DNA of 64,000 nucleotides from Coemansia sp. RSA 487 (lineage: Eukaryota; Kickxellomycota; Kickxellomycetes; Kickxellales; Kickxellaceae): NCBI GenBank assembly GCA_027577595.1, contig JANBRJ010000028.1:113934-177933 (forward strand). Reading direction: 5' to 3'. A model generated the notes under the pieces. That model had not been told where the DNA came from. It did no database searches and saw only the letters and a list, made by a program, of their open reading frames with translations. How positions within the stretch are numbered: the first letter of the stretch is position 1; every line of letters starts with the position of its first letter. Of the stretch, positions 2,885-51,133 are shown piece after piece. Made by a program: the position numbers and the translations under genes.

Positions 2885-4858
2885 ATGGAGGATCTGCAAA
2901 GTGAAGCAATATCCACGGCCATTCCGACGCTAGTTTCAGCAGCGACTGCTGCTGCCACCGCTAGTATTGCACAGATCGTGGCAGCAACAGCACAGCTGGA
3001 AACCGTCACTATTGCGTCGTCGCAAGGCGTTATAGCACAGTCGTCCGGGCTTAAGTTGGTAGGCATCACATCAATGATTCGGTACTTTTGGGCGTGGCAG
3101 CCGACGTTTATGCAAGGGTTTATCCTGGGCCAGCTCAGCATGCTTGTTCTTCTTGTGATGGCAATAAAGTATATTCTGTTCGAGGAGCCTATGGGCAAAA
3201 ACTCTGTCGATGCAGACAACGAAGCCGGCACTCAACCACATCACAACAACGCTGCAGCTGATGCATCAGGGACCACAAAGGGAATGGCCAAGGAAGACAC
3301 GGACCAAACAGTAGTTCAGGAAGGCGGGTTTGGCCTATCAAAGTTTACGTTTTTCTCGCGCAAGCAAAAAGAAACAAAGCCCTGCGACGCCGCCGAAGAG
3401 CTGACCAAGATGAAGAAGGAGGTTCTCTCGCGCACCGGGTACGATCTTGTAACGCATGCGTCCGAGTCGTGTGACTGGCTTACTGTCTTCCTGGCCCAGA
3501 TCATTGCAAAGCTCCGACAGGATGCCGAAAAGCACGGCAGGCTTGTGCGTGTGATCAGCGAGGCACTGAACGGCGAACTCCGCCCGTCAGTCATCGACAA
3601 CATTCGTATCACACAGTTCTCGCTGGGCTCGGACTTTCTGCGCATCACCAGCGCACGCATGGTTCCGTCGACAGGCTCGCTGGGTATGCACGCGGAGCTT
3701 GATCTCGAGCTCCACGACGAGCTGACACTTGGGTTCAACACGCGCATTCTGGTCAACTGGCCACGCAATCTCACGGCCGCGCTTCCTGTGTCGATGGTCG
3801 TTTCGCTGGTAAAGTTTGTTGGCACTGCAGTTATCGACTTTGATTGTACTTCTCAGGAGCCCTCGATTTCAGTGTCCATCCTGCCAAACTATGTGCTAGA
3901 GTTCGATATACAGACCCTCATTGGGAGCAAGGCCAAGGTTCAAAACCTGCCCATGCTTACCTCGGTCATTAGCAGGAAGCTTGAGGCGGCTTTTGCAAAG
4001 GAGTTGGTTATGCCGAACGAAAAGCGCATCAAGATCAAGCACCCGTTTACGCCAAAGACGGCTGCTGATGGCCCTGTAGCGGCCACATCTTCACCACCCG
4101 CACATCCCACTAAAACGGTCGCGCCTGTGCCGCCAACACAGCAGCCCTACACGACAAATGCGCAGCCACGGTCTCCTGCAATCGAAGCCAACCGGCCCAC
4201 ATCTCCAATTGTCCCATTTGTGGCCGAGCTCCCGCCGGACTACAACACGCAGCTCCCCCCGCCCCACCATCTGCGCAGCTCTACAAACTCTAGAGCTACA
4301 GTGACTGGTGCAAAAGCGGCAACACAGGGCCATGTTCATAGCTCAAGTCCCCTGCTGAACGTTCCAGCACGCATGTACACGCCTGAGGAGCCGGCACGTT
4401 TTGGTCTGCACCCATCTCGCCCGGTGCCTAACAACAGCCAACAGCAACAGCGCACTCTGTCTCCCGAGCCTGTAATCAACACCTCATCTCCACAGCTGCG
4501 TCCTATAATCGGCTTATCGTCGGGCACCTCGTTTGGCCCCGTCGTTACGAACCCGCGGATTATAAGTGCCTCTGGTGCACGGATGGCTGGTATGCACGGT
4601 TCGCCATTTCTCCATTCGCCGTCAGGGCTGGTGGCGTCACTGTCAGGGAGCCCGGCATATGCGTCGGCCCAAGGCAATAACGCTGCCACAGGCACTGTGC
4701 CTGCAGCAGCCTTTGCTTCTGCCAGCGGAAGTAGTGGTGGCGTGACCGGTTCAGCGTCAAACAGACACAATGACCTGGATTCTGACGACGATCTCAAGGT
4801 CAAAGATAGCGTCCGACAACGTGTCAATAGGGTTATCCGCACAGTCAACGAATCATGA
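2885..4858 (+). CDS. MMM1: Maintenance of mitochondrial morphology protein 1 (ERMES, ER subunit)
   Basis: Mmm1 anchors the ER-mitochondria encounter structure in the ER and moves phospholipids through its SMP domain, together with Mdm10, Mdm12 and Mdm34. The 657-residue product starts at an ATG and has an Ala-rich N-terminus (lumenal in this family). One transmembrane helix follows at about 79-98, led by the family signature FMQGFILGQLS. The SMP-LTD domain runs from about 190 to 393; it begins ESCDWLTVFLAQ and contains LVNWPRN and SILPNYVLEFD. A P/S/T/Q-rich tail of about 260 residues follows and ends in a short basic/acidic segment. Yeast and mould Mmm1 proteins are usually around 400-450 residues, so the tail is the unusual part. 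The gene converges with KCS1, 109 bp apart. Family assignment is secure; the function of the tail is unknown. Confidence 0.95.
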   Translation: MEDLQSEAISTAIPTLVSAATAAATASIAQIVAATAQLETVTIASSQGVIAQSSGLKLVGITSMIRYFWAWQPTFMQGFILGQLSMLVLLVMAIKYILFEEPMGKNSVDADNEAGTQPHHNNAAADASGTTKGMAKEDTDQTVVQEGGFGLSKFTFFSRKQKETKPCDAAEELTKMKKEVLSRTGYDLVTHASESCDWLTVFLAQIIAKLRQDAEKHGRLVRVISEALNGELRPSVIDNIRITQFSLGSDFLRITSARMVPSTGSLGMHAELDLELHDELTLGFNTRILVNWPRNLTAALPVSMVVSLVKFVGTAVIDFDCTSQEPSISVSILPNYVLEFDIQTLIGSKAKVQNLPMLTSVISRKLEAAFAKELVMPNEKRIKIKHPFTPKTAADGPVAATSSPPAHPTKTVAPVPPTQQPYTTNAQPRSPAIEANRPTSPIVPFVAELPPDYNTQLPPPHHLRSSTNSRATVTGAKAATQGHVHSSSPLLNVPARMYTPEEPARFGLHPSRPVPNNSQQQQRTLSPEPVINTSSPQLRPIIGLSSGTSFGPVVTNPRIISASGARMAGMHGSPFLHSPSGLVASLSGSPAYASAQGNNAATGTVPAAAFASASGSSGGVTGSASNRHNDLDSDDDLKVKDSVRQRVNRVIRTVNES

Positions 4859-4967
4859 CGGCATATACGATTTAGAAAATAAGATTCAGTAATCCGCTTT
4901 TGGCAGTCTAGTCTCGTTCAGTTCAGTTTTATTACTCGACAAAAAATGTATTAAAGAAATGCAATTT

Positions 4968-7900
4968 TTACATGTAGCGGTTGTCAAATAATTTCAATGC
5001 CACACCGACCTCTCCAGCCACTTGGATCACTGTTTGGTCATGGAGCAGACGCGCCTCGTCCGACGCATAGCGTCTCCAAATATCGGCAAACTCGCGCACC
5101 AGAGTGCGTATCCCGCGTAGATAGCCGTAATCTGGCCCGGCGCATTTTGGGTTGCATGGACAGACAGGGACAGGGTTGGTTTCGGTGACATGCGATGACG
5201 CTGGATCAACGTCGGTGCCTGCTTCTGCTAAGGCTGCTGGCTCGGATGCATCGGATTCTATGGCGAATGGCAGCCCCACTGCATCTGGCGGATAGGCTTC
5301 GTGACTCGAGGGATCTGGGCGCTCGAGCGTATGTTCAGAGTACACGTCTGGGTTGACGACAAAGCTGCAGTTGACAAAGTCGATGATCCGTAGGTCAATC
5401 TGCGCAGGTTTTGTCTGTCTTGCAGTGCAAACACGCTGCTTCTCGGCTCCTGCTCTTGCCTCACAATACTGACGCAAACTATTTACTGCTTGGGGCACAC
5501 TGATGCTATCCATGTCGTTTTCGACAGCGCGAGCCTCTTTATTGGTGCCAACAGCGGATATCGAAGCAGCGTACGGGCTTCCGCGCGGTGTACTCCATTC
5601 ATCATTATCCACAGCGCCAGAACCAGAGCCCAGTCTGCGCATCGACAGAGACGTCGCTCCAGCTCTATCATCGGTAAACGAATTCGACGGCGTCTTCAGG
5701 TCGTGTCCAAACGGCGTCTTTGGCGGTGTCTGCCCAAGCCAGCGGGTAACTCCGCTGCTGTCGAGCCTGGGTGCAATAGGCAGGACATCTGGAGCCGTGG
5801 GGCGACGTACCATAAAGCCTTCTCCAGATGGCTGCACTATCTCTGGTAGGGTCGGAGATTGTTCTGCTGCTGCTTGAATAGCAGAAAGCCCATCGTAGAC
5901 AAGCAGCAAGCTCGATCCAAAAAACCTAAACCCATGCATCTGCTCGACGGTGCGATAGAGGTTCTTCAGCTTCAACAGCAGACTCGGAATCAGATATGCC
6001 ATCACATTCTCGCCATTGTCCAAAAACTCTAAAAGCGATCTCTGAAATGTAAATTTGTTCAGCGAACGCCCGTAGTATTTGTCCTGGAAGAGGTAGCGGT
6101 TTCTGTCGGCCTTAAACACCTGTAGCCCGCACATACGCACGCCGAGCTCCTTGCTGGTTGTTGCCGCGCATTTTATAGTTTGCGAGACGACCTTTTTTGC
6201 CAGCGCATCGACACCATGCTGGCGCGTACCCATCTTGAGGTCTAGAATGCAGGGACGCCGCATCGACGCTGTCAGATCGGCCATAAGGATAAACTGGTGC
6301 GTGCTGCCGTCAACTGCGTCAGCGTCGGTTGGCATGCGCTTTCCACACTTTTTTTTCCACAGATTTTCAAAATCAGAACCTTCTCCAGACGCCTTTTGCG
6401 GTCCACAGTCCGCTTGTGCGGGATCGTCACCAAAGCCCGGAAGCGTCAGTGCATCGGGTGTCACTGGCAACCGTGTTGGTACAACTGGCGAAAATACAGC
6501 CGCGCCTCTAGTACGGCGTGCTGTATCAGCGCTGCTTTCTGGGCTATCTGCCGCGGCCTCATCGGGATACGAATTGTAGCGAAGTAGACTGCTGCTGCGG
6601 ACCTTGTTCCTTGGCGATAGCAGCTGGGACACACGCGCTGAACAGGTGCTACGAGCTGGCTTTTTGGGGCTGATAGATGCAGAGACAACGTCGTTAGTGG
6701 GCAAACTAATTGGATAGATATCAGTTTCCAGCCCAGACCGATTGATTGAAAACGACAGCGGGCTGTTCTCGGGCGATGTGCTGGTGGTGGAGCTTGTAGA
6801 TGCACCCGATGTGGAACTGTTGTAAATAGGGTTCATGCGCAAGGTCTCAAGGTCGTTCATTATAATGTGCTTTTCCGTATCAAGACTGTGCGCCTCCTCC
6901 TGTGTTTCACCAGAAAGTGCATTTGTCGAACTGGGTATCTGTGGCTTCCTGTACAGAGGATGCAGATCTGTAGACGAATGTCTGCGTCTAACAGGACCAT
7001 GTGCGTGCGCCCGCGCTTGCTGCCGAGCCCTAAACTTCAGAGCCCTGGGCGAAAGTGCCTCCGTTAGAATCCGCTCCTGCATTTCGCGCCACGCACCACT
7101 GAGATGCATCTTGCGTGCGCCAAAGCTCCCAGGAGCCGCCGTGCGCTGTGACCGGCCGCTGGGCGAGGGGACCAGCTGCCGGGCCAGACAGCTAGGCAGT
7201 ATATGTAGGTTTTGCTCTAGCACGACCTCAGGCACCGGATCGCCACCCTCGGCAGCCCTGCGATACGTGACATTCACAACACCCAAGCAACTTGGAACAA
7301 ACTTGTACAGGTCTCGGTGCAGATAGTCGACAGCCTCGTAAAAGCGACGCTCACGCTCGTTCATCGGCTTGCAGATTGCGCTACCAGAGAACTTTAGGAA
7401 AGGCGTATGGCCACCGACTTGATTGACAAATGGCGTCAGCGCCAACGACGGTGGTGTCACTACGCCGCCCTCGTGCCAGTACTGTGTAGAGGTGTTCCCA
7501 TCACCCGCACTGCTTCGCATGTTGTCAACATGCATTGTGCTGTTGCTGTTGCTGCTGATGTTGTGCTTGTCACTGAGACTCTGTGCGTCGCCTAGCCATG
7601 TTGGGCCAAAGACATCGCTATCGCCGTATTCCGATTCAAGACCAGAGCCACCATCTTCCTCCTGGCTGAAATATTCGTCAAAGTCTGATTCGTCCTTGAT
7701 ATCAAGCCAAACGCCAGGGGGTTCGCTGTGTGCATGCAGGTTGTGGGGCGACGCACTGCGAAGACGATGGTAAGCTCTGTTTTGAATAAGCTGGTGTTTT
7801 TTGGGAAGAGAGTCTGCCGCCGGCACAATATAAGCATCTGCAGGCCAAGCAGTAGAACCCGATGGCGACAGCGTCAGGGTACTGAACGAAAGCCGGCTAT

Positions 7901-25111: not shown

Positions 25112-25710
25112 CTAATATTTAATGGCAAAACTTTTCTTGGCAATGGCCATCTTTATGAGTTTAGGCATACCTTTGATTAGTTTGTTGCCATCATTTATAT
25201 CGATGTTATTCCAGAGTTTGTGAAGGAGTGTTTTTGTATTGCTTTAGAGTTCTTGATTGACCAACGTTGAGCCGGAATGTGCTTTCATCGGCGGATATAA
25301 GTTCCTTCCACTGTTCGATGTTCCAATTGATATGGCTGTTGGCAAACTCTAGCTGTTCTTTTGCCTGTCTATCAGCAATAAATGGCTTCTTCCTTCCCAC
25401 CCCAGAAACAATGCCTTCTTTTTTCAGAATCTTCCCAACATACTGGCGAGAAATAGCGAGATCTAAATCAATTATGCTCTGGTTGTTTGTTATTCTCAGA
25501 TCCTTTATCGCCGTATTTACAATGCATCGTCTTGTATATTTATCGATCCTAGATATCCTGCCACTCTTTGATTTAGGCTCTATTGTCCCACATTCGTCTA
25601 AATGCTTGATCAAGGCTCGCACAGTTTGCCTACACAAGCCTAATTTTCACCTACTATACTAAGAGGGAAACCTTGATCTCTCTTGATAGCTTTCTTTCTG
25701 AAGTATAGCG
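25112..25710 (-). mobile_element. Internally deleted Tc1/mariner-type transposase remnant
   Basis: The piece 25637-25206 encodes the N-terminal helix-turn-helix DNA-binding region (LCRQTVRALIKHLDECG, YVGKILKKEGIV) and the strand with the first catalytic Asp (LISADESTFRL). A few further N-terminal residues occur in a shifted frame up to about 25710. Beyond the stop at 25206, another minus frame gives the typical C-terminal end of Tc1 transposases (KLIKGMPKLIKMAIAKKSF) with a stop at 25112. The middle, including the second Asp and the last acidic catalytic residue, is missing. The copy therefore cannot make an active enzyme. I did not find terminal inverted repeats or a TA duplication by eye. 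Confidence 0.75.
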
Positions 25711-42941: not shown

Positions 42942-45158
42942 CTAGAGGGCGCACACAGCCGATACAGTGGTGCTTTGCTCAGCCGAAACATCCCTGGCAG
43001 CAAGAGCAGGCGATCTGGCTGCAGGATCGGACTCTGCATCCGCATCGAGTTTGGCCTCATCATCTTCAGAGTCTTCGTCCTCTTCCAGGATGCTGTCGAA
43101 GCGCGACGTCGGGTGTGCTGCTGGCGTTGGCGGCAGCGCAATCGACGGCGCTGCTACTGCGCTCGGCTCAGCAGCAGTAGCCAGCGCTGCCGCTGCTTCA
43201 GACGGAGCAGCAGGTTTGGGAGCAGGCGCAGATCCAGATTCTGATGCTGAAAGCGGTGGTGTGGGAACAGCAGCATGGCTGTCTTTGGGAGCAGGCTTGG
43301 CGTTACTGAGCTTGCGCATCGACTCGATCATATCCTGGAGCCGCCGCATCGCCAGAGTTTCAGAGCCTATCTGGTCGCTCGCGCCAGTTCCAGCAGCCTT
43401 CTCGTCCACCGCACTCATCGGGGTTACAAGTGATGGTGCTGCTGGTGCTGCTGATGATGATGGTGATGCTGCTGCTGTTGCTGCTGTGGAAGGCGACGCA
43501 GAGGCATTTGCCCCAGCCGATGCAGCCTGATCCTCGGCGCTTGGCTTCTGGAACATGATCGCTGGGATGCGGATCGTGTTGTTTGGGTCGACCGCAAGCC
43601 CTGCGCTAGACACAGAAGCTCTGCGGGATGCAAAGTACCCGCCGTTCGCAAACGACGTCCCAGGCTGTCCAGTTGACCCGTTTGACGACGTCCGTGACAA
43701 CGACGGCATATGCGGTGCAAGCACGTTCCCTGGCCGCGACTGTGACATCGAGATGCGCAGACCGGCAGTGCTGCTGTGTGTCAACACTGACTGGCTGCGC
43801 CCACGCGTTCCTGCCGCTAGTCCTACAATTGGTGCGCTGAGCGGTGGATTGTACATTCCTGCATGGTCCAGACTCACCGATGTCGCCGATGACAGCCGCC
43901 GCATCGGGTTTGGCGCAGTGTGGCTCTGCTGACTCTGACTGTGGCTCTGGTAGCCGACATTCTGCATCTGCGGCGAGAACGATCTTGCAGTCGAACGGAG
44001 CTGTGTCGACGTCATCGAGCGCTGACGGAAGGAGGGTGGCGCAACATTGTAAGTAGGGTGTGCGGGCGGCGGCTGGTACGCGTAGGGCGCTGGAGCGGGC
44101 GATGTGACAGACCGCGAATTCGCGTGCAGATGCGATGCCTGCGAATAGTAGGTAGACTGCGGCGCAGGCGACATTGGGGAGCTCAGGCCAAGCGGCATGT
44201 GTCCGTCGCCGTACGATACAGGGAATCGGGCACGCGGCAGCCCAAAGTGGCCCATTGATGAGCGGCGCTGCTGCACGTTGCTTGGCAGGAAGCGCGGCGC
44301 CCCGGCGTGGAACGCTGGGTGCACAGGGGGGTACTGGTGGTCGGAGCTGCTGTGGTCGTCGTTTGGCTGCGACCCAAAGTACACGCGTGCGCGTCCGTTC
44401 TCGCCAGGCACAATCATCGCCCCCGACAGCGGCCCACCGGTGGAGCTCCTGATATACTGCGGCGGAGACATTGGTCTTGGCGACGCGCTCTGCGGCGCCG
44501 TTGCTTGCGACAACGACGACGATGCCCGCGAGGACGCTGCGGTCTCGTTGACTGCCGACGCGTCTGGGTGCTGTCTTGTGGAGTTCTGTGCCTTGCCTCG
44601 GTTCCTTTGTCCCGTGCCTTTCTTCCCGCTATTCTCCCGCGTGTTGGTCGTGGTGGGCTGTGCTGTATGGCGACGTCCGCCGCCGCCCCTTGCCGATTGT
44701 TTACTGGGCGTGGCATCCCCATTGGCAGAGTCTGCGGCAGCTTCTGGTACTGCTACTGCTGATACTGGATTCTTCTGTTTCTTTGGTCTTCTCTTTGTGG
44801 ATTTCTTGCGGGATGCCAGGGGATTGTTGCTGGTGTTGTTGGCTGCTGAGTCGGCATCGCTGGATGGTGCAGTAGCAGGTTGTGTGGCGGTGGCTGTGGC
44901 CTCCTTGCGCCTATCCTGCGCTTTCTTGCCATCATTGCCATTGCCATTGCCATTGTTGTTGCTGCTGCTGGCGGATCCTTCCTGTCCATCAGTCTTGTTT
45001 TGGCGGTTCTTCTTGTGCCGCCCTCCTTTTACTGACCTTTGCTTGGCATCGCGTACGTTGCTCCTGTCGTTGAATGACGCGTTTGCTGATAGAGCAGGCG
45101 AGGCTGCGCGCGAGTTACTTGCGCTAGCAAGAAGTGGGAATGGTTGAGGAGCAGCCAT
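42942..45158 (-). CDS. Large disordered Ser/Ala/Pro-rich protein, function unknown
   Basis: The frame is open for 738 residues from ATG 45158 and its third codon positions are GC-rich like the neighbours, so it is very probably real. The first ~190 residues contain two basic clusters (GGRHKKNRQNK and RKKSTKRRPKKQK) separated by an N/G tract, resembling nuclear-localisation or RNA-binding patches. The middle is Y/H/P/Q-rich with several short motifs (SGAMIVPGENGRARVYFGS; RRSSMGHFGLPRARFPVS). Near residue 600 a short helix LAMRRLQDMIESMRKLSN is the only structured element I can see. The end is A/P/S-rich with an acidic patch (LEEDEDSEDDEAKLD). I recognise no domain. A role in RNA granules or as a kinase substrate is only a guess. 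Confidence 0.65.
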   Translation of the reverse strand: MAAPQPFPLLASASNSRAASPALSANASFNDRSNVRDAKQRSVKGGRHKKNRQNKTDGQEGSASSSNNNGNGNGNDGKKAQDRRKEATATATQPATAPSSDADSAANNTSNNPLASRKKSTKRRPKKQKNPVSAVAVPEAAADSANGDATPSKQSARGGGGRRHTAQPTTTNTRENSGKKGTGQRNRGKAQNSTRQHPDASAVNETAASSRASSSLSQATAPQSASPRPMSPPQYIRSSTGGPLSGAMIVPGENGRARVYFGSQPNDDHSSSDHQYPPVHPAFHAGAPRFLPSNVQQRRSSMGHFGLPRARFPVSYGDGHMPLGLSSPMSPAPQSTYYSQASHLHANSRSVTSPAPAPYAYQPPPAHPTYNVAPPSFRQRSMTSTQLRSTARSFSPQMQNVGYQSHSQSQQSHTAPNPMRRLSSATSVSLDHAGMYNPPLSAPIVGLAAGTRGRSQSVLTHSSTAGLRISMSQSRPGNVLAPHMPSLSRTSSNGSTGQPGTSFANGGYFASRRASVSSAGLAVDPNNTIRIPAIMFQKPSAEDQAASAGANASASPSTAATAAASPSSSAAPAAPSLVTPMSAVDEKAAGTGASDQIGSETLAMRRLQDMIESMRKLSNAKPAPKDSHAAVPTPPLSASESGSAPAPKPAAPSEAAAALATAAEPSAVAAPSIALPPTPAAHPTSRFDSILEEDEDSEDDEAKLDADAESDPAARSPALAARDVSAEQSTTVSAVCAL

Positions 45159-46171: not shown

Positions 46172-48145
46172 TTAGAGCTGCTCATACTCGCTCCGGTAGT
46201 GCAGCAGATTTGGCACGTTTGTGTACAAGTAGTCGCGGTACAGCCCGCCCAATTTCATAGCGATGAAGCTCTTGAGTCTAACGGTGCTGCTCTCCATCCA
46301 CGCCGCGTACAGCTCCGAGTCCGCAGGCGCCGCGCGCGCCAGCTCCTCGCGCACGATCGCCCAGCCGCTGCCCGAGTAGTGCAATCCCAGCGCACGGACC
46401 AAGCGGTTGATATGGCACTGGATCAGCGTGTGGTACGCCACATCATAGACCTCGTCCATCGTGCGCGCTGTCGTGCTGTTTCCCGGCAGCATGGGGAGCT
46501 CGTGCCCAGTCGACCTCCGGAACGTCTCTGGGTGCACCATGACTCCGCCAAAGTCACGGATGACAAACCCAAGGACTCGCCCAGATGCAACGTCAACGCG
46601 CACCAGCGTGTTCTGCTGGTGCGCCTCGAAAGCAAACCCGTGCGCCAGAATCGGAGGCAAAAACGCTGCAAACAGCAGCCGCACGTATGTGCGCAGAAAC
46701 GCTTGCGCCTTGTCTTCTGTGTCCAGCTCCCATTGCTCCTGAACGACGCTTGTCCCGTGCGCATTGCGCTCCGTCAGCGCTGCCGCCACAATCGCACGCT
46801 CCTCGCGTGTGCCGCAGAGCGCCTGCGTGTTGTGCCGCACAATGCATGCCAGGTACTTTGCCATCTCGTGGTCGCGCACGATTGCGCTGGCCGGCTCACC
46901 AGCAACAAGCAGCACATTCTGCCGTTCATCCTCCGCACCTCTGTCTAGTATCAGCGGCAATAGCGGCGTCAGACGCGGGCCAAGGTGTGCAGACCACGGG
47001 CTCACTGTGCGCAACGCTGACGATGTCTTGACACCCAGAGGAAGCTTTATATCAAGTCCGCTTCCCTCCAGCGCCTGCGGAGACACTGTGCGCAATGAAG
47101 CTTGTGCCTCTGCAGGCGCAGCAAACGGCAGCTCGCGTGCAAATGGGAAAAGCGTCTTGACTGCCGGCAAATGCAGCTCGTGTACAGGTACAACAACCTC
47201 GTTGTCCAGATCAACGCAGTCCAAAAGACGCTTGGCATCGCTAGACACGCTCTCGCTGCCCGATTGCTCCTGATCCATCTGAATGCTGTGCGCCGCCTCA
47301 AACAGTGGCATTAGAAGCGCATTGTAGTCACCAGCTGTGTCCGCCCGATCGCGCGACACTGCAACAAACCGCAGTTCTATGTGGTGCAGCTCCGCACTTG
47401 GCAGGAGCGGCTGCAATGGCGGCACTGCGTACCTGGACCGGTGCATCGGGTGTGTTGCATGGCCCTCGACGATCGACTGCTCCCACTCAATTGCCGACGA
47501 CTGCAGCGTCACCGCGGGCCGATCCTTGCGATACGCAAATGCATGCATCTGGTGCGTCATTGAGCTCTCCAGCTCATCACGGAGCCCACACACCACGTCC
47601 TGATCCAGCTTGTTCCACTCGGCCATCTGCTTCAGAAGCTCCAGCGGTGATGTCACTACCGTGCCCATCCACTTGCCTTGCTCCAGATCAACAGCGCTGG
47701 TACGCCACACCCATACGCCCAGATCTTCGGGATCCAGCATCCGCACATGTCGTACGTTGTTCCACCGCGAATCCGATGCCTCGTCGACTATTGGACGGTG
47801 CCGCAGCTGGAACACCAGCGACCCGGCAGACCATATCTCGCCGTTCGTCATCGGTGGGTAGCAGCACAGTGAGCTAGACACAAGGAGAAAGCTTGCATCC
47901 GGCGTCTCCGGGCAGCTGACGTACCATCCGCAGACAAGCTGCTCGTTCACCAAACATGTCAGCAACCGTGACATCGTTGCAAAGCAGGTGCGGTGATACA
48001 CGCCGTGATCTGTCTTTGGTAGGGCAAACGGACATGACTCGCATTCCCTCAGCGCTCTGACCAGTCCGGCAGGGACATTGAGCAATACCGTTTGCTGTTG
48101 TCTCCCCTCAACATCACCAGATAATACTGCTGTGATATTGCTCAT
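46172..48145 (-). CDS. NRPS-independent siderophore (NIS) synthetase, IucA/IucC family
   Basis: NIS synthetases adenylate a carboxylate such as citrate and join it to an amine or alcohol to make siderophores, for example rhizoferrin in Mucorales. The 657-residue product from ATG 48145 covers the full family. The N-terminal ATP-binding motif is VEGHATHPMHRSRYA (about 225-238), close to the family GHxxHPxxKxR. KLPLGVKTSSALRTVSP lies near 365-380. The C-terminal fold has HGFAFEAHQQNTLVRVD (about 500-515) and FVIRDFGG (about 533), which hold the catalytic His and acidic residues. The end carries the ferric-iron-reductase-like FIAMKLGGLYRDYLY. Cytosolic localisation is expected. No transporter or diamine enzyme is adjacent. 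Product could be rhizoferrin-like; this is inference. Presence in a fungus suggests ancient bacterial acquisition. Confidence 0.88.
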   Translation of the reverse strand: MSNITAVLSGDVEGRQQQTVLLNVPAGLVRALRECESCPFALPKTDHGVYHRTCFATMSRLLTCLVNEQLVCGWYVSCPETPDASFLLVSSSLCCYPPMTNGEIWSAGSLVFQLRHRPIVDEASDSRWNNVRHVRMLDPEDLGVWVWRTSAVDLEQGKWMGTVVTSPLELLKQMAEWNKLDQDVVCGLRDELESSMTHQMHAFAYRKDRPAVTLQSSAIEWEQSIVEGHATHPMHRSRYAVPPLQPLLPSAELHHIELRFVAVSRDRADTAGDYNALLMPLFEAAHSIQMDQEQSGSESVSSDAKRLLDCVDLDNEVVVPVHELHLPAVKTLFPFARELPFAAPAEAQASLRTVSPQALEGSGLDIKLPLGVKTSSALRTVSPWSAHLGPRLTPLLPLILDRGAEDERQNVLLVAGEPASAIVRDHEMAKYLACIVRHNTQALCGTREERAIVAAALTERNAHGTSVVQEQWELDTEDKAQAFLRTYVRLLFAAFLPPILAHGFAFEAHQQNTLVRVDVASGRVLGFVIRDFGGVMVHPETFRRSTGHELPMLPGNSTTARTMDEVYDVAYHTLIQCHINRLVRALGLHYSGSGWAIVREELARAAPADSELYAAWMESSTVRLKSFIAMKLGGLYRDYLYTNVPNLLHYRSEYEQL

Positions 48146-49600
48146 TTTGACGTATATAGTTGTAAACCCCCGGCGACGCTCTTACCACTCTTACCACCAC
48201 ATCCAGATCCCTGTGCTGCAGAATCTCTTCCCCCTTGATGTAATACAAAAGCAGTTGTATTGATTCGAGCAAGATGCACTAGGTGGTGTTTTGAAGCCGA
48301 TAAGAAGCAAATTGTGAGTTGGCAGCGTTGAAAGAAAAAAGAAAGAGAAAAAAGAAGGAAAGCACGAATGGTAATGCCAAGAAAGTCAGTCTTCCAGATA
48401 AAGGAAAAAAACCGTCCCTTTCTTTGATTTTCCGATGTTGACTACCGTTTGGGCATTTGATTTGCTCTTCTTTCCCTGCGTGTGCTAGTTTATTCGCCAG
48501 TAAAGAACTGTAAGGAAGACGCGATCTGGTACCACAATCTTTTTTTCACTTGATAAGAACAAACAGGACAGATTGAATACGAAGTTTTTTTTGGACATTT
48601 CGCTGCAAAAATTGATTTGTAATCAAAAGAAGCGCAGCCATATATTGCCTTTTGTGCATATCTGCATGCATTAATCTGAGTGTTAGATTCCCAAAGTCTA
48701 TGATCTCTGTTTATAGCTTTGATCTGGATTCTAAATTTTGCGGTCAGCAGAAAAGCGGTTGTGAATTTTTGGGATAAGGGGAGGAACGGATCTTCCGGAC
48801 CTGAGCCCAGCACGACAGCGGAATGATGTGGTGCTGATAACGATAACAGTGATCGCCAAACAAAACAGACCGACCCCCTACAACGGCTACGGCAGTCAAC
48901 CGACGAATAGCAGCGCAGGAACGCATGAGTTTAGTCGCAGGAAAAAAGGCACAACCAGATAAGAAAAAAAAAGTGTATGGTGCGGAAAGTTATTCTCCGA
49001 GCGTCATCATGAAGAGCCTGGCATTGTTCTTTGTGTTTCCAAATCTCCAAAAAAAAGAACAGCAGCAACAGATGTCTAACGAAAACAGAAACGGTATGGA
49101 TGACCTGTGGGAAAAGTGCGTGGGCAAGCAGCTGCCAAAATAATCTTACATGCGCATACAGCAAAATATTTGTTGAATGAGCAAGACTTTTCACTCTATC
49201 ATCTGCGCACGGGCACTCAAATGGAGACTGTCTGATAAAGCATAATTGAAAACTGCACTCAGCAATGGCAGGATTCTCCTCGTCACCACCCACCATCCTT
49301 TTTAAAAAACGCCTGGGAAAGTCCCTCCTTCTCCCTCTTTGTCTGGATTTCGCTCTTTCTTCCTTTTCTACTTCCAATCCTCCATTTTTCTTTCATCCTT
49401 TCTTTTTCTGCTACTATATTCATAAGAGCCCTTTACTATCTTTGCTTATTTTTCATACTTTACCTTTTTCTAGCTCCTCTGTACTGGTGCGCTGGCGTAA
49501 GAAGAAAAAAGGACACTCTAACAGAACACTCTCCCCAAGCTTTTAAGGTAACCTCGGCAGGAAAGGCCTCCACCTCCATTTCTTTTGTTATATTATCTGA
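48146..49600. promoter_or_regulatory. Divergent region between the siderophore synthetase and ZWF1
   Basis: About 1.45 kb contains both promoters. I see no clear HGATAR-type cluster that would mark an iron-responsive GATA factor site, though single GATAA/TTATC words occur. The last 300 bp before ZWF1 are pyrimidine-rich. An ATG-led 72-codon ORF at 48925-49143 (Lys/Gln-rich) has no further support. Confidence 0.4.
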
Positions 49601-51133
49601 ATGTCTCTGAGCTGCAGACTTGACGATGCTGCGACGCACGACGTGCTGACCACCATTGTGGTGTTTGGTGCGTCGGGTGATCTTGCCAAGAAGAAGACGT
49701 ACCCCGCTCTGTTCCACCTCTTCCAGCAGGGGCTGCTTCCCAAGCGCACCCGCATTCTCGGGTACGCACGCACACAGATGGCCCGCGACCAGTTCACCAG
49801 ACGGGTGACGTCGTTCTTCAAAAAGGATGACCCGCAGGCCGACATTGACAACTTTCTCAAGATATGCGAGTACGTCAGCGGCAAATACGATGTGGCGGAG
49901 GACTTTAAGCGGCTCCGGAGCGAGATCGACGCCAACGAAAAGGCGATGAACAAGCAGGACCGCGACGAGCGGGTGCACATCTACTACCTTGCGCTGCCGC
50001 CATCGGTGTTCGTGTCGGTAGGCACGCAGATCAAGGAAAACGTGTACGATGGGTCGTGCACGAACCGTGTGGTCATCGAAAAGCCCTTTGGCCACGATCT
50101 TGACTCGAGCCGCGTGCTGAGCGAGAAAATCGGCGCGCTGTTTGCCGAGGACGAGATATACCGCATCGACCACTATCTGGGCAAGGAGATGGTCAAGAAC
50201 ATTCTTGCGCTGCGGTTCGCCAACGTCTTTTACGAGACTGTGTGGAACCGCCATTACATTGACAACATCCAGATCACATTCAAGGAGCCGTTTGGCACCG
50301 AGGGCCGCGGCGGGTACTTTGATGAGTTTGGGATCATCCGCGACGTCATGCAGAACCACATGCTGCAGGTGCTGAGCATCGTGGCGATGAACCAGCCCAA
50401 GTCGCTGCGGTCGGAGGATATCCGCGACTGCAAGACACAGGTGCTCCAGCGGATCCTGCCGATCCAGCTCGAGGACACACTGCTTGGGCAGTATGTCCGC
50501 TCTGGCGACGGAAGCAAGCCTGGGTACAAGGACGACGACACCGTGCCCAAGGACTCGATTACGCCGACATATGCACAGTCGGTGCTGCATGTCGACAACA
50601 GCAGATGGCGCGGCGTGCCGTGGGTGCTAAAGGCTGGCAAGGCACTGGACGAGGCAAAGATGGCGATCCGCATCCAGTTCAAGGACATGCCGAACGCGCT
50701 GTTCCCCAACTTAGCGCGCAACGAGCTTGTCATCGAGGTCAGCCCGAAGGAGTCGGTGTACATCAAGACAATCGTCAAGGAGCCTGGTCTGTCGACAAAC
50801 CTGGCAATGTCCGAGCTCGACCTGTCGTACCACAAGCGCTACCAGGACATCAAGATCCCCGATGCATACGCGACGCTGATCCTCGATGTGCTCAACGGCG
50901 ACCACTCCAACTTTGTGCGCAGCGACGAGCTGGACGAGGCGTGGCGCATTTTTACGCCGCTGCTACACCATATCGACAAGGAGCAGGTGGTCCCGCTGCC
51001 TTACGAGTACGGGTCGCGTGGCCCCAAGGGCGTTGATGAGTTTCCTACCGAACGGGCTGGCTACAAGCGCACGGCACGAGAGTACCACTGGCAGCCAAAG
51101 TCCGCCATGTCTGGCGGCAGCGGCAAGCTGTGA
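49601..51133 (+). CDS. ZWF1: Glucose-6-phosphate 1-dehydrogenase
   Basis: This cytosolic enzyme oxidises glucose-6-phosphate with NADP+, the first step of the oxidative pentose phosphate pathway and a main NADPH source. The 510-residue product has the NADP-binding signature VVFGASGDLAKKKTYPALF (about 20-38). The substrate-binding and active-site motif RIDHYLGKEMV lies near 186, followed by FANVFYETVWNRHYIDNIQI. FKEPFGTEGRGGYFDEFGIIRD forms the core, and a conserved C-terminal WRIFTPLLHHID is present. Length equals the usual 490-515. The gene is very GC-rich in third positions, which fits high expression. No anomaly is visible. Confidence 0.97.
   Translation: MSLSCRLDDAATHDVLTTIVVFGASGDLAKKKTYPALFHLFQQGLLPKRTRILGYARTQMARDQFTRRVTSFFKKDDPQADIDNFLKICEYVSGKYDVAEDFKRLRSEIDANEKAMNKQDRDERVHIYYLALPPSVFVSVGTQIKENVYDGSCTNRVVIEKPFGHDLDSSRVLSEKIGALFAEDEIYRIDHYLGKEMVKNILALRFANVFYETVWNRHYIDNIQITFKEPFGTEGRGGYFDEFGIIRDVMQNHMLQVLSIVAMNQPKSLRSEDIRDCKTQVLQRILPIQLEDTLLGQYVRSGDGSKPGYKDDDTVPKDSITPTYAQSVLHVDNSRWRGVPWVLKAGKALDEAKMAIRIQFKDMPNALFPNLARNELVIEVSPKESVYIKTIVKEPGLSTNLAMSELDLSYHKRYQDIKIPDAYATLILDVLNGDHSNFVRSDELDEAWRIFTPLLHHIDKEQVVPLPYEYGSRGPKGVDEFPTERAGYKRTAREYHWQPKSAMSGGSGKL

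Follow-up and report, generated by a model that had tools for sequence, protein, structure and literature searches.

We describe here a siderophore synthetase gene in a 64,000-nucleotide stretch of the genome of the fungus Coemansia sp. RSA 487 (17.8 Mb, 184 contigs); the whole stretch, C28:113934-177933, is called the window below. The open reading frame (ORF) at 46172..48145 encodes a nonribosomal peptide synthetase-independent siderophore (NIS) synthetase of the IucA/IucC family with its catalytic residues retained. We read it as a native Coemansia NIS synthetase, one of two copies born within the Kickxellales, which would make a citrate-based siderophore and is probably repressed by iron; we put the probability of this reading as a whole at about 0.8. 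Synthetases for citrate-type siderophores occur widely among early fungi, so the gene would represent ordinary fungal biology and not a bacterial intrusion.

The ORF starts with ATG and runs as a single uninterrupted frame of 657 amino acids (aa); no intron is indicated, because a 647-aa Coemansia relative aligns with it end to end. Both domains of the family scored above their curated Pfam cut-offs (IucA_IucC, 100.1 bits against 25; C-terminal FhuF-like, 64.2 bits against 25.2), and a chance match is ruled out by the E value of 1.8e-28. The initial annotation was therefore right to describe an intact, full-length IucA/IucC protein in which the HQQN and RDFGG motifs are present. The HxxHP-type motif that it called N-terminal is also there, as GHATHPMH at residues 228–235 (G228, H229, H232, P233, M234 and H235 being unvarying across a 15-row alignment), but it sits mid-protein, where the IucA_IucC domain begins. 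By alignment, the AcsD active-site residues R305, E442 and H444, with roles taken from the available text of PMC3323832, correspond to R379, E507 and H509 of the window protein, and K563 was assigned by eye from its motif to K625. The acceptor-carboxylate residue of AcsD, R501, had no safe placement in the fungal proteins. The protein is predicted to have the NIS fold, its model matching AcsD; a PDB search with the single window protein returned AsbB only, and a profile search returned 14 distinct sequences.

The IucA/IucC family is mainly bacterial, and this favors bacterial contamination or a bacterial gene recently acquired in the Coemansia lineage as the source; we consider either exceedingly improbable and reject both. 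The closest proteins came from Coemansia sp. IMI 209127 (80% identity) and Coemansia sp. RSA 1933 (77%), and the protein collection records the identical window protein on five contigs of up to 183,672 bases. As first described, the gene has ordinary fungal neighbors in a fungal chromosome; glucose-6-phosphate dehydrogenase (G6PD) adjoins it and an SNF1-like kinase lies nearby. A protein search, in which the 7,996 candidates with the most words in common were scored and which distant bacterial proteins were bound to escape, gave 97 matches; nine were nameless (the query itself among them), and the 88 named ones comprised 86 fungal proteins and those of Fonticula and of the nucleariid Lithocolla. 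When 84,980 prokaryote species were scanned, the best 80 of at least 310 confirmed bacterial relatives were just 24–34% identical in their best segments, and the protein was not placed in a bacterial genus at near identity. A plasmid-borne bacterial source was rejected as well, because none of the 47 matches among plasmid records covered 80% of the query (25.6–30.9% identity in the 20 of 47 listed). Bacteria and eukaryotes also part in both of the trees that we built.

The quick tree held 94 rows (72 of 184 homologous proteins, the second copy from the same genome and 21 of 112 bacterial ORFs) and the careful tree 63 rows; the bacterial ORFs were picked with two patterns derived from a mainly fungal alignment. 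All bacteria fell on one side of the quick tree (support 100*). The careful tree split bacteria from eukaryotes (100/99*) and set the fungi apart (99/98*), and within this fungal clade the window protein grouped with Mucorales Rfs-type proteins, the sampled bacteria being excluded. Two nucleariid-type rows adjoined the fungi; the careful tree paired them, with support of only 66/25, and the quick tree kept them apart. The trees show separation and not the direction of a transfer, since the bacterial root was imposed and the program warned that long branches meet where the bacteria join. They point to a native fungal NIS gene inherited from older fungi. Nothing in them marks the horizontal transfer into the Coemansia lineage that had been proposed, and any bacterial transfer would predate the fungi sampled. 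In this they agree with the available text of PMC8070225, where vertical inheritance is the apparent pattern for the NIS genes of early-diverging fungi, Fonticula is another organism with such genes, NIS enzymes are predicted in Kickxellales (section 3.10), and Carroll and Moore 2018 is cited for the NIS genes of Kickxellales and early-diverging fungi. Among fungi, NIS enzymes are not confined to Mucoromycota, and the headline surprise, NIS genes in Kickxellales together with their vertical inheritance, is already published in that source.

For a much older event, in which the gene passed from a bacterium, possibly one having an enzyme like FslA, to an ancestor of fungi and nucleariids, we consider the odds about even. 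FslA gave the top NCBIfam score in nine of ten bacterial relatives scanned (none above the cut-off), and the eukaryotes occupy one side of the tree, where the nucleariid-type rows sit beside the fungi. Such a topology, however, depends on the imposed root, the long branches at the join and a bacterial sample found by mainly fungal patterns, and the trees resolve neither donor nor direction; moreover, other eukaryotes lie outside the tree, for example Dictyostelium (PMC3188802). In the phylogeny of PMC10700112, basidiomycete enzymes fall together with Rfs among the type A' NIS synthetases.

A second intact NIS copy was found elsewhere in the same genome (C137, L002 886-2826); across 612 aligned columns it is identical to a protein (P0022) filed as Coemansia sp. 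RSA 1813 (Kickxellaceae). Apart from Mycoemilia, the Kickxellaceae rows formed clade I, containing the window protein (100/100*), and clade II, containing the second copy (100/99*), and the two clades were sisters in the careful tree (96/89*) and the quick tree (91, unstarred). Coemansia, Dipsacomyces, Martensiomyces, Linderina and Kickxella are present in both; Mycoemilia, which is filed in Kickxellaceae, lies outside both, as do Furculomyces and Smittium of the Harpellales. Since the clades share five genera and leave Mycoemilia outside, the duplication seems to predate most of the family and to have arisen within the Kickxellales. In the careful tree the two copies split after parting from the sampled Mucorales, and the window gene is not a one-to-one orthologue of Rfs.

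The clades differ at residue 536, which is Met in all 15 clade I rows and Lys in all 15 clade II rows. Lys or Arg occupies the position in 20 of 21 bacterial rows and 39 of 43 other eukaryotic rows, the four exceptions being Syncephalis (Met), Mortierella (Thr) and extra copies in Phascolomyces (Glu) and Zychaea (Asp). When a wider set was read by motif, Met was present in 14 of 16 clade I proteins (motif not found in two), and the 31 clade II proteins comprised 28 with Lys, one with Met and two in which the motif was not found. AcsD also has Lys at the matching position by alignment, and a text search of the available part of PMC3323832 gave no mention of K469.

Clade I might have changed its function after the duplication, taking another amine or acid partner or a different step, with clade II as the ordinary rhizoferrin-type enzyme; we think this rather unlikely. 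Fixation of Met536 would fit such a change, as would ten positions at which the two clades differ almost without exception, the longer stem of clade I (0.49 against 0.28 for clade II in the careful tree) and its smaller membership (16 proteins against 31, by best BLAST match among the 184 homologous proteins, counts that hinge on sampling and include many partial records). On the other hand, clade I retains all catalytic residues that could be placed, and residue 536 is non-basic also in the four exceptions named above and in one clade II protein. A broader proposal, which we offer as a doubtful one, is that the Kickxellaceae possess two functionally distinct NIS synthetases, that clade I, having lost the basic residue 536 found in nearly all sampled rows, would yield a citrate siderophore that is different, being asymmetric or modified, and that both copies would belong to a Sre-type iron regulon.

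Returning to our reading of a citrate-activating enzyme, homology to AcsD and to fungal Rfs suggests that the protein, after binding ATP and citrate, would make citryl-AMP and then transfer the citryl moiety to an amine; the product would be a rhizoferrin-like siderophore built on citrate. Citrate activation and amine transfer would follow from membership of the NIS family. Synthesis of a citrate-amine siderophore of the rhizoferrin kind is the most likely role; we infer the activity, the rhizoferrin-like product, the substrates and secretion, and carboxylate siderophore production, as suggested in the initial annotation, is the best inference. The Rhizopus delemar enzyme favors diamines according to the available text of PMC7857480, and among the open-licence papers listed none dealt with the siderophore chemistry of Kickxellales. 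The genome has one strong match to the ornithine/diaminopimelate/arginine decarboxylase family, likely an ornithine decarboxylase and hence a source of putrescine. In the genome search, which went by single exons and so does not prove a gene absent, the nonribosomal peptide synthetase (NRPS) condensation domain PF00668 gave one match, over the cut-off together with its frame neighbors; the examined part of this frame matches TIGR03443, Lys2 (E 1.8e-183), so that the only NRPS condensation match in the genome is, judged by this similarity, Lys2.

Iron control is suggested by candidate GATA elements. In the available text of PMC2610380, SreA-type factors are marked by two GATA fingers and an interjacent Cys-rich region, and ATCWGATAA is over-represented upstream of their target genes. 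A frame in the Coemansia genome (L096, C17:9081-9818) encodes two GATA fingers with a CPGDGTCNGKGGGPSCDGCPAYN stretch between them, like Sre, Urbs1 and Fep1, and fits the SreA/Urbs1-type definition. The genome contains 299 copies of ATCWGATAA and 159 of the reversed pattern. Two ATCAGATAA sites lie approximately 205–265 bases upstream of the paralogue II ORF (L088 8364-8425). The 1,455-base gap between the window gene and G6PD holds five CWGATAA sites (48395, 48834, 48956, 49232 and 49593), out of 15 in the whole window, and a sixth site lies just within the ORF. Shuffling the gap gave a mean of 0.37 sites, with 0 of 300 shuffles reaching five, and the reversed control pattern occurred at most twice in any 1,455-base span; six GATA patterns were tried and CWGATAA was picked afterwards, so these shuffle and Poisson values are not clean tests. 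The one FTR1 permease gene of the genome is divergent from a multicopper oxidase, and their common gap contains ATCAGATAA and another CAGATAA (L089 5224-6019); the decarboxylase locus contains no ATCWGATAA. Three loci with multiple ATCWGATAA sites, chosen among the first 100 of the 299, were examined. One of them has two ATCAGATAA sites (L091 4471-4647) just upstream of a 529-aa DUF1636 ORF (4696-6285), possibly a further iron-regulated gene, and in the remaining two no iron gene was recognised by eye. The concentration of GATA sites upstream of both NIS copies hints at iron-GATA control, which we regard as a lead; NIS expression would probably be repressed by iron through the Sre/Urbs1-type factor. 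As a separate observation, ATCAGATAA also stands just before the frame of another two-finger GATA protein without the typical Cys-rich stretch (L102 859, C1:313151).

Several observations count against our reading or parts of it. At position 536, just after RDFGG, the window copy is without the basic residue that is nearly universal elsewhere. The decarboxylase gene has lysA as its top NCBIfam match, below the cut-off of these bacterial models. The ornithine hydroxylase family PF13434 has three matches in the genome above its cut-off of 21.3 bits (31.7, 25.6 and 23.4 bits), by which a hydroxamate route may be present; the family also matches in 12 of 14 control genomes, and the best model for one match (L003) is trimethylamine monooxygenase, below the cut-off, and for another (L004) other flavoproteins, weakly and below those models' cut-offs. 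In the 20 window ORFs scanned with Pfam, out of a longer list with further short ORFs, there was no siderophore transporter or other pathway gene, and a gene cluster was rejected, with no transporter, decarboxylase or reductase domain among them. As to regulation, the gap of the window gene contains the CWGATAA core and no full ATCWGATAA, the core being a pattern chosen post hoc; CWGATAA is not enriched across the whole window (15 sites against 14.4 expected), and the two ATCWGATAA sites in the window are not close to the NIS gene. Neither HGATAR (four sites; 28% of shuffles reach the count) nor WGATAR (15% of shuffles) is enriched upstream of paralogue II, other loci of the genome contain 34 CWGATAA in 93 kb, a rate above that of the rest of the window (several of these loci having been chosen for their sites), and no ATCWGATAA was found within 3.1 kb around the Sre-like gene.

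Features of the NIS locus in the window and their coordinates
Feature	Coordinates	Strand	Basis or remark
NIS siderophore synthetase, Kickxellaceae paralogue I	46172..48145	-	657 aa, apparently single exon
IucA_IucC domain, residues 218-458	46772..47494	-	PF04183, E 1.8e-28
FhuF-like domain, residues 482-621	46283..46702	-	PF06276, E 2.6e-17
GHATHPMH motif, residues 228-235	47441..47464	-	sequence and 15-row alignment
HQQN motif, residues 509-512	46610..46621	-	alignment; E507/H509 = AcsD E442/H444
RDFGG motif, residues 530-534	46544..46558	-	alignment
Met536	46538..46540	-	Lys or Arg in sister paralogue, most other eukaryotes and bacteria
Gap between NIS gene and G6PD, candidate iron-GATA control region	48146..49600	.	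1,455 bases, five CWGATAA sites
Glucose-6-phosphate dehydrogenase, divergently transcribed neighbor	49601..51133	+	PF02781 and PF00479
Low-complexity 738-aa ORF, neighbor, without Pfam match	42942..45158	-	ORF list and Pfam scan

Farther away in the window, Pfam identified a VHS/GAT protein and NCA2 in addition to the SNF1-like kinase. Rfam (at the gathering threshold) and tRNA scans gave no match within the window. A Tc3-type transposase helix-turn-helix fragment (PF01498) at 25206-25646 is perhaps a piece of a decayed element.

What is new here, all of it as leads, is the old paralogue pair, Met536, the Sre-like factor with its GATA sites, and Lys2 as the sole condensation match. Residue 536 is a candidate specificity residue, and the GATA factor a candidate iron switch resembling that of Dikarya; if true, the type of GATA factor that Dikarya use for their hydroxamate siderophores would here govern a carboxylate siderophore system. 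The likeness to SreA, Urbs1 and Fep1 lies in the two-finger layout and in the paired sites upstream of paralogue II; the difference is that the window gap holds the shorter core alone, and the evidence consists of site occurrence counts.

Among bacterial systems, the rhizoferrin synthetases of the FslA/FigA type are close, FslA being the best NCBIfam match of the window protein and of most bacterial relatives scanned; the window protein reaches 73.5 bits with the FslA model NF041038, far under its cut-off of 1000, the bacterial relatives are as distant as stated above, and neither a major facilitator superfamily (MFS) nor a pyridoxal phosphate (PLP)-decarboxylase domain occurs in the 20 scanned ORFs. 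AcsD of the achromobactin pathway in Dickeya is 18% identical to the window protein, and it joins citrate to L-serine (available text of PMC3323832). As a side observation, four Streptomyces loci (L028, L039, L063 and L067) contain two tandem NIS-type ORFs, the second of which carries a GWNR motif like the one surrounding AcsD R501. The window gene is of the same kind as the Kickxellales and early-fungal NIS genes of PMC8070225; section 3.10 of that paper is silent on a paralogue pair in Kickxellaceae, on residue 536 and on control by GATA factors. With the fungal Rfs of Rhizopus delemar and rfs of Mucor lusitanicus the gene shares the two-domain NIS architecture, a fungal clade that includes the Mucorales proteins and a single-gene locus, as described for fungi in the available text of PMC8070225. 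No sampled protein was confirmed as a characterised Rfs, including P0105, filed as R. delemar. The window protein differs from this group in being 36% identical to a Sporodiniella member, in the duplication of the Kickxellaceae gene and in having Met536 where the others have Lys or Arg.
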